A DNA stretch of 64,000 bases, taken from contig CACOMD010000004.1 of assembly GCA_902628235.1 (NCBI GenBank), positions 1-64,000 on the forward strand, written 5' to 3'. This DNA comes from an uncultured Prochlorococcus sp. (lineage in GTDB: Bacteria; Cyanobacteriota; Cyanobacteriia; PCC-6307; Cyanobiaceae). The notes under the pieces are model-generated. The model searched no databases, was not told the DNA's origin, and was given only the letters and a program-made list of their open reading frames with translations. The position numbers and the translations under genes were made by a program. This document shows positions 54,264 to 58,430 of the stretch, one piece after another (within the stretch, counting starts at the first letter, position 1; each line of letters begins with the position of its first letter).

Positions 54264-55502
54264 ATGAAAGAAAAAACTATTATATTTTTTGATGTTTGGA
54301 CAAAAGGTTCACACCACTATAAAGAGCTATCTCGACTTTTTCTAGATGATAATATTAATATTGTTCTATTACATTTTGGATCATATGGCGATGAAATTAA
54401 AAAAGAATTGATAACCGAAGTTAATAGAATAAAATGCTATGACATGAAATATTTTCATTATAAAATTGATAAGGCAATTAATAATTTCAAACCAATTGCA
54501 ATTTTATATCTTTCAATTGATCCGCTAATAATGAGAGCTTGTAATTTATATGCCCTTAAATATAATATAAAAACATTTCTAACATATCCAGGATTATGGA
54601 GTGCACAAGATTATAATTCACAAAGAACTTTATCAAAAAAGAATTTAATTGAATATACAAAGTGGATATTTAGTAGAAGTTATAATTATCTAATTAATGC
54701 TTTACCTCAATATGCTAAAGCATTAATTATTAATAATAATAAATTTAAAATATTGATCTCTTTTTTAAAAGAAGAGTTTAATAAATTAATTGGTAAGTTA
54801 GAGCCCAGAAAGTCCTTAGATAAAGCTGTTAATACAGTATTTGTTTATAATTATTATGATAAATTTCATGCTGAAAAAAAATTCAAGGGTTCGAATATTC
54901 ATATAGTTGGAGTTCCTGATTTATTCAGATTTGGTAATTTCTTAAAAAACAGTAAATTTAAATATACTTCAAACGAGCTTTTATACTTAGGTAGCGGATC
55001 AAGAAGTAGAGGAATGCTACTAAAACATCCAAATGATTACTTTATTTATTTAATGAAGATAAAAAGTTACTTTAAAAAATTTGGAAAACATATTAAATTT
55101 AAATTACATATTTCAACAAAAGAAGAAATTAAAAAGATCAGTAGATCTCTTAATAAACATATTGAGATAGTAGAAAATGAAGATTTTTTTAATACTATTC
55201 ACAAAGTAGAAGGATGCATAACTGAGCCTTCAAGTATTAGTCTAGTACCGATTTATTTAGGGTTGAAACTATTTGGAACCAGAATGTATGATTTAGAAAA
55301 ATTAAATTATGGCGAATCAATTAAAAATTATAAATTATTTTCTTATATTAATGAAAAGGATAATTTAACAAAGAAAATCTCAGAGTTAAATACTAAAAAT
55401 GAAGATGGGGTTTTTAATTCAATTAATAAGATATGTGGATCTACATCACCTCTTAACTTCTCTAAAATTATTTATGAAGAAATATCTAAGCAAATAAAAT
55501 AG
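54264..55502 (+). CDS. Unrecognised protein, possible GT-B glycosyltransferase
   Basis: A 412-residue soluble basic protein I cannot assign. The N-terminal half has alternating strands and helices (KTIIFFDVWTKGSHHYKELSRLF, INIVLLHFGSYGDE, TFLTYPGLWSAQDY). The second half has NELLYLGSGSRSRGMLL, FKLHISTKEEI, and GCITEPSSISLVPIYLGLKLFGTRMYDLEKL, which resembles the E-P-S-S-x-G segment at the donor site of CMP-sugar or CDP-glycerol-type GT-B transferases. Located just before neuB and neuA, it may transfer the CMP-nonulosonate. That is context inference only. Confidence 0.5.
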   Translation: MKEKTIIFFDVWTKGSHHYKELSRLFLDDNINIVLLHFGSYGDEIKKELITEVNRIKCYDMKYFHYKIDKAINNFKPIAILYLSIDPLIMRACNLYALKYNIKTFLTYPGLWSAQDYNSQRTLSKKNLIEYTKWIFSRSYNYLINALPQYAKALIINNNKFKILISFLKEEFNKLIGKLEPRKSLDKAVNTVFVYNYYDKFHAEKKFKGSNIHIVGVPDLFRFGNFLKNSKFKYTSNELLYLGSGSRSRGMLLKHPNDYFIYLMKIKSYFKKFGKHIKFKLHISTKEEIKKISRSLNKHIEIVENEDFFNTIHKVEGCITEPSSISLVPIYLGLKLFGTRMYDLEKLNYGESIKNYKLFSYINEKDNLTKKISELNTKNEDGVFNSINKICGSTSPLNFSKIIYEEISKQIK

Positions 55503-55590: not shown

Positions 55591-56388
55591 ATGATTATTG
55601 CTGAAATAGGTTGGAATCATATGGGAGATATATCTTTAGCAAAAAATATGATCTTAGAAGCAAAAAATTCAGGTTGCGAATATGCTAAATTTCAAGTCTG
55701 GAGCGTTAAAAATTTGAAAGATGGTTCTTGGGATGGAGATGGCAGAAGAGAAATTTATGAATCTGCAGAATTAACACAAAGTGACCTAATAAGTCTAAAA
55801 AACTATTGCGAAGAAATTGATATAAAATTTTTAGTTTCGATATTCTCTATAAAAGATACGGATAAAATTAAACCTCTCAATTTAAAATCAATAAAGATTC
55901 CCAGTACTGAAGCTACAAATAAATCATTAATAAAATGGGCATTCTCACAAAATTTTGAGAGAGTTTTTATAAGTACTGGATGTTGTAATAGAGAAGATTT
56001 AAATTTCCTTAGAGAAAATATAATACCTGAAATAACAACAGTAATGCATTGTGTTTCAGCTTATCCTTGCCCAGTTGAAAATGTTAATCTACCAAGAATT
56101 AACTCATTAAAAAAGTATTTCATAGATGTTGGTTACAGTGGACATTTTGATGGAATAAATGATGCAATTGCTGCTTTAACATTAGGAGCCTCATATATAG
56201 AAAAACACTTTACAACTGATAAGTCATTACCGGGAAGAGATAATAAATTTGCACTATCACCAAGTGAAATGAAAACTTTATGTGAATTTGAAAAAAACTT
56301 AATAAGTATGAAAACCAATTGCGGTTTAGACTATCAATCAATAGAGCAAGATATGCATGATAATTACATTGGGCGATGGGATGCTTAA
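55591..56388 (+). CDS. NeuB-family nonulosonate synthase without SAF domain
   Basis: A 265-residue PEP-dependent condensing enzyme, TIM barrel only. It shows IIAEIGWNHMGDISLAKNMILEAKNSG and YAKFQVWS (PEP and substrate site), KIPSTEATNKSLI, HCVSAYPCPVENVNLPRI, VGYSGHFDGINDAIAALTLGASYIEKHFT and the metal/active-site segment DKSLPGRDNKFALSPSEM. Known NeuB, LegI and PseI proteins are about 335-360 residues because of a C-terminal antifreeze-like (SAF) domain that caps the neighbour's active site. Here the chain ends at GRWDA, right after the barrel. It abuts the fused GT2 gene with no gap (TAA-ATG). Confidence 0.88.
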   Translation: MIIAEIGWNHMGDISLAKNMILEAKNSGCEYAKFQVWSVKNLKDGSWDGDGRREIYESAELTQSDLISLKNYCEEIDIKFLVSIFSIKDTDKIKPLNLKSIKIPSTEATNKSLIKWAFSQNFERVFISTGCCNREDLNFLRENIIPEITTVMHCVSAYPCPVENVNLPRINSLKKYFIDVGYSGHFDGINDAIAALTLGASYIEKHFTTDKSLPGRDNKFALSPSEMKTLCEFEKNLISMKTNCGLDYQSIEQDMHDNYIGRWDA

Positions 56389-57738
56389 ATGGGAAGTAGA
56401 AATTTAGTTTCTGTGATCATAAGATCGCATAATGAGGAAATCTGGTTAAGACATTCAATTGAGGCTGTCAAGAGTCAGAATTTAGAAAATGTTGAGATAA
56501 TCTTAGTTGATAATAATAGTACTGATAGATCCGTTGAGATTGCAAAAAAGCTTGGTGTAAAAAAAATTATAAATATTGAGAAATATAGCCCTGGTAAAGC
56601 TATAAATTTAGGAATAAGTATTTCATATGCAAAATATATAGCGATCTTATCTGCTCATTGTATTCCTTGTAATAACAAATGGCTTAAAGAGATGGTGGAT
56701 GAACTTGAAAAAGATATTAATATTTCAGGTACTTATAGCAGGCAGGTACCACTTCCATTTTCAAACCCAAGTGATTCTAGAGATTTATTTATTACATTTA
56801 GTAGCGAATCAAGAACTCAAAAATCTGATAGTTTTTTCCATAATGGCAGTAGTCTAATAAGATATGACAGTTGGAAATCATCAAAATTTAATGAAGAACT
56901 CTCTAACATTGAGGATAGAATATGGGCTCATGAACAACAGTCAAGAGGATTCTCAATTCGATACTGCGCTAAAAGCATTGTTTTTCATCATCATGGAATT
57001 CATCAAAATAAAGATAATACTTCAAGATCAATTAGTACAGTAGATATTATCAGAAAAAAGTTTTTTCCTTATGGTTCAATTCTTCCAAATAGTATGCTCC
57101 CTGAGAACCAAAAAGTTCTCTGTGTTATATCTGCTAAGAAATTCAAGTTAAATAAAGAAAGAATAAAAAATTGTATTAAAAATTTAAAAAAATCTGAGTT
57201 AGAATTATTCATTGCATTAATAATTCCTGAGAATGAATCAGAGGATTATGAAATTGATAGTAATTTAGAATTAAATCTTATTTATCACATAAAACATCAA
57301 GATTCGCTAGAAAAATGTTTATCTGAAATTGTAAAGAAGGCCGAAAAGAATAATATTATTGATTATACTTTTTATTTAAATTTAGATTACTTTCATAGTA
57401 TGAAGATTGACCTAAAAGATAATATAAGGATTGCCTGTGAAAAAGGATATGATTCAATTATTCCTGCTTTTGAAGATAAAACCGGTATAGTGATTAAAAA
57501 TGAAAATGAAAATCTTAAAATTTTGAATAATGACTTAGTACATTTAAAAGAGAAGCAGATCCATAGGAAACTATTGCTTGGTCAAGGTTCATTATCAAGA
57601 AACTTTATTACTCGTCAAGGTAAGTTAATTACTGAGGATTCAAATATATTTTTTAATCCAACTAATAACATTCTTCATACTATAAGATTGGGAACTGAAG
57701 CTCATAACTCATTAATGAAATTCTTTGACAAAAAATGA
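56389..57738 (+). CDS. GT2 glycosyltransferase fused to a NeuA-like C-terminal domain
   Basis: A 449-residue protein. Residues 6-220 are a family 2 GT-A transferase: VSVIIRSHNEEIWLRHSIEAV, EIILVDNNSTDRSVEIAKKLG with the DNN in place of DxD, ILSAHCIPCNNKWL, and NIEDRIWAHEQQSRG holding the catalytic ED. Residues about 242-445 resemble a decayed cytidylyltransferase. IDYTFYLNLDYFHSMKIDLKDNI with ACEKGYDSIIPAF and IHRKLLLGQGSLSRNFITRQGKL line up in order with matching parts of the NeuA protein encoded next door, but the N-terminal CTP loop is missing. It starts directly after the neuB stop and overlaps neuA by 4 bp. Confidence 0.8.
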   Translation: MGSRNLVSVIIRSHNEEIWLRHSIEAVKSQNLENVEIILVDNNSTDRSVEIAKKLGVKKIINIEKYSPGKAINLGISISYAKYIAILSAHCIPCNNKWLKEMVDELEKDINISGTYSRQVPLPFSNPSDSRDLFITFSSESRTQKSDSFFHNGSSLIRYDSWKSSKFNEELSNIEDRIWAHEQQSRGFSIRYCAKSIVFHHHGIHQNKDNTSRSISTVDIIRKKFFPYGSILPNSMLPENQKVLCVISAKKFKLNKERIKNCIKNLKKSELELFIALIIPENESEDYEIDSNLELNLIYHIKHQDSLEKCLSEIVKKAEKNNIIDYTFYLNLDYFHSMKIDLKDNIRIACEKGYDSIIPAFEDKTGIVIKNENENLKILNNDLVHLKEKQIHRKLLLGQGSLSRNFITRQGKLITEDSNIFFNPTNNILHTIRLGTEAHNSLMKFFDKK

Positions 57739-58430
57739 ATAATATTTATGCTATCCTCCTCGCGAGAGGAGGATCTAAAGGATTAATAAAAAAGAACATT
57801 GCTAAACTAAATGGTATTTCTCTTTTAGAGAGAACTATTAAGGATGCGAAAAATTCTAAGTTTATAAATAAAATCATCGTATCAACTGATAACGAAGAAA
57901 TAAAAAAACAAGCATTAATGCTAGATGTGATTGTTTTTGATAGAGAAGAATACCTTGCTGATGATTTAGCTTCAAGTGACTCTGTACTTCAGAATATTGC
58001 GAATAAACTTCTTTCTCAAAAAGATCTTCCAGAACTTTTTGTATATCTTCAAATAACCGAGCCCTTCAGACCAAGAGATATCATTGACAAATGTATCGAA
58101 AGCTTGTTGATAGATGATTCAAAAGATTCAGCTTTTGCTGCTTTCTCCACGCATAAAAACTATTGGATGATTCATGAAAACAAACCATATAAAATAACCC
58201 CAGAAGAGGAATCTTCAGTCCCAAGACAGTTTAAAAAACCTATTTTAAGAGAAGATACTGGAATCGCTTTAGCAGCAAGACCTGAGGTTTTCTTATCTGG
58301 AAGGAGAATAGGAGATAATCCTAAAATAATTACTTATGATAGCTACCATTCTGTTATTGATATACACTCTAAGAAAGATTTAGAATTTGCAGAGGTTATA
58401 GAAGAATTTTTATTAACAAAGGAGAATTAA
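57735..58430 (+). CDS. neuA: CMP-nonulosonate (acylneuraminate) cytidylyltransferase
   Basis: A 231-residue CTP-dependent enzyme that activates sialic-acid-like nonulosonates. The CTP loop is AILLARGGSKGLIKKNIAKLNG at residues 5-26. Others are KIIVSTDNEEIKKQA, YLQITEPFRPRDIIDKCIE, and SVPRQFKKPILREDTGIALAAR followed by IDIHSKKDLEFAEVIEEF, with the metal-binding D-x-H-x-x-x-D. Length is normal for the single-domain form. It overlaps the GT2 fusion gene by 4 bp (ATGA). With the NeuB-like gene it shows that the glycan includes a CMP-linked nonulosonate. Confidence 0.93.
   Translation: MNNIYAILLARGGSKGLIKKNIAKLNGISLLERTIKDAKNSKFINKIIVSTDNEEIKKQALMLDVIVFDREEYLADDLASSDSVLQNIANKLLSQKDLPELFVYLQITEPFRPRDIIDKCIESLLIDDSKDSAFAAFSTHKNYWMIHENKPYKITPEEESSVPRQFKKPILREDTGIALAARPEVFLSGRRIGDNPKIITYDSYHSVIDIHSKKDLEFAEVIEEFLLTKEN
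58418..58424 (+). promoter_or_regulatory. Strong Shine-Dalgarno before the bi-domain oxidoreductase gene
   Basis: AAAGGAG, inside the last codons of neuA, ends 9 bp before the ATG at 58434. It is unusually strong for this genome, where most starts have weak or no visible ribosome-binding sites, and fixes this start. Confidence 0.6.

Follow-up and report, generated by a model that had tools for sequence, protein, structure and literature searches.

To our knowledge, the list of bacterial enzymes that can attach sialic-acid-like sugars is short. In Campylobacter jejuni, the protein CgtA-NeuA reportedly joins a glycosyltransferase to a CMP-sialate synthetase. The protein described here is likewise a transferase joined to a synthetase, but its synthetase half is degenerate, whereas that of CgtA-NeuA is said to be active. 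Sialyltransferases usually lack a DxD motif and need no metal, and no enzyme by which bacteria transfer legionaminic acid to their surfaces had been reported as of 2020, according to the excerpted text of PMC7439481. The bacterial sialyltransferases of families GT38, GT42, GT52 and GT80 resemble our protein in the proposed CMP-sialic-acid-like donor and in having no D-x-D (excerpts of PMC7439481), but these are other CAZy families and our protein matches GT2. The Sps locus of Bacillus subtilis, as described in the same excerpts, brings together genes for legionaminic acid synthesis, the putative cytidylyltransferase SpsF and the GT2 protein SpsA (PMC7439481), a combination of sugar-acid genes, cytidylyltransferase and GT2 that is also found here; unlike what we propose below, SpsA is reported there not to be required for the transfer of Leg. 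Our search for a fusion between a GT2 and an inactive cytidylyltransferase, which covered titles and the beginnings of abstracts mostly outside the subscription journals, found no description, and a printed record may exist.

Gene layout and the glycosyltransferase half

The window, i.e. the whole analysed stretch of 64,000 nt (GC content 29 %), comes from an uncultured Prochlorococcus sp. whose genome assembly comprises 1.23 Mb in 53 contigs and is 71 % complete. Its forward strand contains an open reading frame of 449 codons (positions 56389–57738) for a GT2 domain fused to a degenerate CMP-sugar-synthetase-like domain. This gene is preceded by a neuB-like gene, coding for a NeuB-family synthase of 265 aa (55591–56388; PF03102, E = 2.8e-51), and followed by a neuA-like gene (57735–58430; PF02348, E = 2.5e-20) whose product, a cytidylyltransferase, has the CTP loop ARGGSKGLIKKN; all three genes are on the same strand. 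The first-pass annotation had placed the fusion between neuB and neuA, without a gap on one side and with a 4-bp overlap on the other, and this is exactly the case, since neuB ends at 56388 and neuA starts at 57735 within the shared ATGA. The nearest NCBIfam model for the NeuA of the window is PseF, with a score under its cut-off. Pfam did not identify a SAF domain in the 265-aa NeuB of the window or in the NeuB of an IMG/VR contig (L102), and did so in that of an Acidobacteria MAG (L053); NeuB-family synthases of 265–272 aa were found in the window and also in L043, L044, L047, L048 and L102. Adjoining neuB, positions 54264–55502 code for a 412-aa protein without significant Pfam matches, and in L047 a relative of it (26 %) also has a NeuB of this kind as its neighbor.

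The N-terminal domain of the fusion (ca. residues 4–220, positions 56398–57048) has retained both GT-A fold and ED motif, but S-x-H has taken the place of D-x-D. The Pfam GT2 family PF00535 matched residues 8–159 with 86.5 bits (E = 2.5e-24; gathering cut-off 23.3), and in the full-length model the mean pLDDT of residues 11–200 was 84–97 per block of ten. At E 1, the Pfam matches of the fusion were three GT2-type families and a weak unrelated one, with none to GT38, GT42, GT52 or GT80. The match to PF00535 and the GT-A fold are shared with the GT2 enzymes K4 chondroitin polymerase, GalT1 (5hea) and SpsA. D-x-D is the usual, not universal, metal/nucleotide motif of GT2 enzymes, and it does not occur in the fusion. 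Instead, an HMM alignment placed S-A-H, from the motif S88-A-H90-C91 (56650–56661), on the D-C-D of K4 chondroitin polymerase, that is, at the D-x-D site. Residues S88, H90 and C91 are invariant in 17 aligned fusions, as are E175 and D176 (56911–56916), the 'ED' motif that contains the catalytic base in the GT2 family.

Kinship and degeneration of the C-terminal domain

The C-terminal domain comprises residues 236–449 (positions 57094–57735). A BLASTP comparison of these residues with the NeuA of the window alone stayed at chance level (E = 1.8), and the C-terminal half of the window's fusion had no credible Pfam match of its own. Since a single-sequence comparison at chance level cannot settle kinship, we used family profiles. 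A profile of 15 other C-terminal domains found the window domain with 44.3 bits, the best of 2000 shuffles reaching 9.8, and a NeuA profile found it with 21.2 bits (best shuffle 7.5). The 16-row NeuA profile included a sequence later classed as a dead copy (L053:5452-6162), and the comparisons were repeated without that row, upon which the match was weaker but stood (16.6 bits; best shuffle 9.9). With hhalign, the 16-row NeuA profile matched the window domain weakly (probability 32, E = 5e-4). A profile of 16 C-terminal domains, from which L049 and the near-copy L054 were omitted, matched the profile of 16 cytidylyltransferases over 218 columns with E = 2e-34 (7e-32 without the dead row). The profile-profile alignment pairs the same three segments that the first-pass annotation had matched in order to NeuA, and the similarity is well above chance. 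When used against the PDB, the domain profile retrieved five matches at E 0.01, namely the CMP-NeuAc synthetases 6ifd (5e-9) and 1eyr (3e-7), the NeuA structures 9ftb (6e-7) and 9t4z (3e-4), and a ribitol-5-phosphate cytidylyltransferase (0.004). Additionally, Pfam CTP_transf_3 matched 10 of the 16 C-terminal domains, the window's not being among them.

The matches listed from a Foldseek search with the full-length model were glycosyltransferases, along with the related proteins LH3 and COLGALT1, and included no cytidylyltransferase; as the list was taken up by the GT2 half, we modeled the C-terminal domain alone (pLDDT 78, pTM 0.74). Its best fold match in the PDB was the CMP-NeuAc synthetase 1qwj (Z 14.5, rmsd 3.4, 180 residues aligned), followed by the CMP-sialate synthetases 9t4z (Z 14.5) and 6ifi, 6ifd and 9ftc (Z 14.4), so that the predicted fold is closest to CMP-sialate synthetases, in agreement with the NeuA-like domain read in the first-pass annotation. 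Close runners-up were other nucleotidyltransferases (IspDF with Z 13.3, and UDP-sugar and GDP-mannose pyrophosphorylases up to 13.1) and some GT-A enzymes (ArnC and mannosylglycerate synthase, Z 12.6–12.7), near enough to the sialate synthetases (13.2–14.5) that the fold alone would not decide kinship. The matches listed from a viral structure library were mostly generic glycosyltransferases, and no phage record matched at 1e-15. Profiles, fold and alignment support that the C-terminal domain is a degenerate homolog of CMP-sugar synthetases.

The domain is like NeuA (1qwj, 1eyr, 6ifd, 9ftb, 9t4z) in fold and sequence profile, but differs from it in lacking the CTP loop R-G-G-S-K...K-N, in not keeping the D209/D211 pair and in being situated behind a GT2 domain. 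In an alignment of 44 sequences, the loop residues S14, K20 and N21 were present in all 27 cytidylyltransferases, whereas K20 and N21 were missing from all 17 pseudo domains (16 fused, plus the unfused one from L053). Of the 16 fused pseudo domains, 15 have a shortened loop, among them that of the window, where a Lys occupies the position of NeuA S14 and no residue is aligned with K20 or N21; in L055 and L053 the loop is approximately of full length and the motif is gone. The loss of the CTP loop that had been read from the window is thereby confirmed. D209 and H211 of the window NeuA correspond to R and G in the window domain, within a stretch of unsure alignment. We assume that positions 209 and 211 are those of the metal-binding aspartates of CMP-NeuAc synthetases. 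Among the 17 pseudo domains, the first aspartate is kept only in L055 and the second only in L052, with position 211 being Arg in 10 and Lys in one; both aspartates are present in 10 of the 27 cytidylyltransferases. R70 is kept in 15 of the 17 pseudo domains and falls in a gap in the window's. Seven of the 27 NeuA-like proteins show D-I-H at 209–211 (window 57735–58430, L039, L040, L041, L051, L055 and L102), and 17 of the remaining 20 show D-x-D or N-x-D. Without the CTP loop, the pseudo domain is very probably unable to make CMP-sugar.

Occurrence, neighboring pathways and origin of the fusion

The first-pass annotation proposed a survey for the same fusion in other genomes, and relatives with open frames of 434–483 aa indeed turned up, both in 11 additional genomes belonging to the window's family and on six named contigs, from Scalindua (L049, cut by the contig end), Omnitrophota, SAR86 (two contigs), Bacteroidetes and Parcubacteria. 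The alignment of 17 fusions mentioned above contains the window's and 16 others, with 12 from the window's family and five from named contigs, L049 being left out. We rejected a frameshift or an assembly artefact as the origin of the fusion, since many genomes have this architecture in an open frame.

The genes surrounding the fusion differ between locus types. NeuB is present at the loci of the window, L031 and L033. Another type of locus (L034, L036–L041, L051, L054 and L055) contains Gfo/Idh, DAHP-synthase-like and AroE-like genes, named after single members of each family, and this recurring set may encode the synthesis of a CMP-activated sugar acid that is as yet undescribed. At these loci the set is situated beside the fusion and a cytidylyltransferase gene, and it also occurs in L045, there with a short S-x-H GT2; the DAHP-synthase-like protein of L037 scored 264.7 bits against the TIGR01361 cut-off of 267.75. 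In L035 (9955-12976) and L052 (9308-13072; by sequence start only), an HMGL-like gene and then a KdsB-like cytidylyltransferase gene lie near the fusion, followed by a gene that is presumably HAD-like, judging from its start; this set is perhaps another route to an ulosonic acid. Because the locus types differ and the constant companion is a cytidylyltransferase, we propose that the fusion is a general CMP-ulosonate transferase and not a sialic-acid enzyme only.

In the phylogeny, the 17 pseudo domains lie on one side of a branch with support 91/82, below the starred level, and the window domain is among the most divergent members (branch 3.28); this topology fits a single origin of the pseudo domains. 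Two unfused arrangements suggest how the fusion arose. Contig L102 has the gene order of the window, with a short NeuB, an S-x-H GT2 of ca. 206 aa and a NeuA, whose NeuB and NeuA are 48 % and 42 % identical to those of the window, the two NeuAs being sisters in the tree (98/92). In turn, L053 encodes its GT2 and its dead NeuA separately, together with NeuB and an intact cytidylyltransferase. A plausible history is that neuA was duplicated, that one copy lost its loop, and that this copy was joined to the upstream GT2.

Candidate roles of the two halves

We consider it likely that the fusion is the glycosyltransferase for the CMP-activated sugar acid of its own operon, the dead domain being kept most probably as a binding module. 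NeuB would make the sugar acid, NeuA would couple it to CMP, and the GT2 half would move it from there to a glycan. The replacement of D-x-D by S-x-H suggests that this half acts on a CMP-sugar and needs no metal ion for it, and the loss of D-x-D is understandable because a CMP-sugar has a single phosphate; a CMP-sugar is the probable donor, and we lean, a little less firmly, toward catalysis independent of metal. Since short S-x-H GT2s without any extra domain exist, the chemistry probably does not depend on the dead domain, which most likely adds binding, be it docking to NeuA, holding the CMP-sugar or the acceptor, or self-association.

Docking on the neighboring NeuA, in a heterodimer formed through the old dimer surface of the synthetase and channeling the CMP-sugar, is a role that we put forward tentatively. 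CMP-sugar synthetases are a dimer-forming family, from which the domain descends. Besides the pseudo domain, a CTP_transf_3 gene was found within 4.7 kb in all 12 family genomes with the fusion; in the window and in L039, L040, L051, L054 and L055, the two genes overlap. Nevertheless, the intact cytidylyltransferases near the fusions belong to several distinct clades in the tree, which argues against a dedicated partner. Somewhat more doubtful is a role of the domain in supplying or regulating the GT2 site through binding of the CMP-sugar, of CMP or of the acceptor: the Arg or Lys that occupies the second aspartate position in most pseudo domains could replace the metal, and R70 is widely kept, but the window domain has Gly and a gap, respectively, at these positions, in a stretch where the alignment is unsure. 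Self-association or another structural role for the domain is a possibility of a similarly low order. Of the interpretation given in the first-pass annotation, the degenerate synthetase homolog is supported; that it holds CMP-sugar or NeuA, and that synthesis, activation and transfer are physically linked, are possibilities.

The GT2 domain could also use an ordinary NDP-sugar and merely share its locus with a sugar-acid pathway, as members of PF00535 mostly use NDP-sugars. Related GT2s, where the locus was read, split by motif into S-x-H types (LSAHC, LSSHC, ISGHC, ASAHVYP) and TQD types. A CTP_transf_3 gene was situated within 2 kb of the S-x-H GT2 in 25 of 33 genomes, within 5 kb in 31 and within 7 kb in 32, the sole exception (G104) having no cytidylyltransferase on its 9-kb contig, whereas none of the seven genomes with a TQD type had one within 7 kb; the Fisher value of 4e-7 takes related genomes as independent and serves as a guide only. 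These 33 and seven genomes are those with a motif read at the fetched locus, weaker GT2 matches and named contigs standing outside the count, and the CTP_transf_3 genes counted exclude the pseudo domains, a few fragments and those rows that were taken for GlmU or IspD on account of their length. The 33 include two cases (G005 and G059) in which the S-x-H GT2 and a cytidylyltransferase with the loop residues and D-I-D form one ORF, the stretch being partly X in G059. These single ORFs are situated at L014:436-2247 (- strand) and L013:1408-3357 (+ strand), and the CTP loop of their cytidylyltransferase is apparently intact.

A count of all 57 GT2 places in five genomes gave a cytidylyltransferase within 4 kb for five of five S-x-H types and for one of 52 other or unread GT2s (three of 52 within 7 kb); here, 25 of the 57 GT2 rows without a locus plus the unreadable L086, i.e. 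26, were scored as not S-x-H without being read, and two of the five S-x-H motifs were taken from a separate reading of the loci on both strands. On plasmids, all six matched GT2s have S-x-H, and three of them directly overlap a gene annotated as 'acylneuraminate cytidylyltransferase family protein', with a fourth having a cytidylyltransferase-like ORF ca. 3.3 kb away. For the remaining two, from Gloeothece plasmids, neither the annotation nor BLAST with our query proteins identified a cytidylyltransferase within 5 kb, as would be expected with an NDP-sugar donor. GT2 genes are often grouped with sugar genes, so that proximity speaks indirectly for a CMP-sugar donor. The contrast between motif types in both counts nevertheless makes an NDP-sugar donor unlikely, and S-x-H GT2s, judging from their genomic neighborhoods, go along with CMP-sugar synthesis whether or not the dead domain is present. 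Neither this association nor the missing D-x-D had been noted in the first-pass annotation.

If the C-terminal domain were a functionless, decaying remnant, one could understand the long branches of several pseudo domains, including the window's, and its conservation, which is lower than that of the GT2 half in all seven pairs compared. However, the dN/dS of the pseudo domain was 0.10–0.28 over these seven pairs, which share some sequences and, with dS of 1.4–2.9, give rough values; ratios of about 0.1–0.3 indicate that the dead domain is kept by selection. In addition, the frames are open in numerous genomes, as they are on the distant named contigs, and in the 17 aligned fusions G398 is invariant and E319 and R409 nearly so. 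We rejected decay on the dN/dS values and regard it as very improbable. Lastly, one could take the domain for another nucleotidyltransferase, or for a second domain of the GT-A glycosyltransferase type, that is NeuA-like only by its similar fold. This would agree with the small fold margin and the chance-level pairwise likeness to the window NeuA, but is scarcely credible given the profile-profile match, the CTP_transf_3 matches to members other than the window's, and PDB profile matches that, save for the ribitol-5-phosphate cytidylyltransferase, are CMP-sialate-type synthetases.

The most interesting part of these findings is a broader proposal, which we advance as a conjecture: S-x-H GT2s may be undescribed metal-independent transferases of CMP-ulosonic acids (sialic-acid-like, Kdo-like and perhaps heptulosonic), and in one branch a duplicated synthetase might have been fused and inactivated, and now dock the live synthetase or carry its product. 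The signature of an S-x-H GT2 with an adjoining cytidylyltransferase would name candidate transferases in many genomes, and the conserved pseudo-enzyme domain on a transferase offers a direct test of channeling from activation to transfer. The recurrence of the fusion in distant bacteria, beside a working synthetase, points to an undescribed kind of enzyme that attaches sialic-acid-like sugars to cell surfaces.
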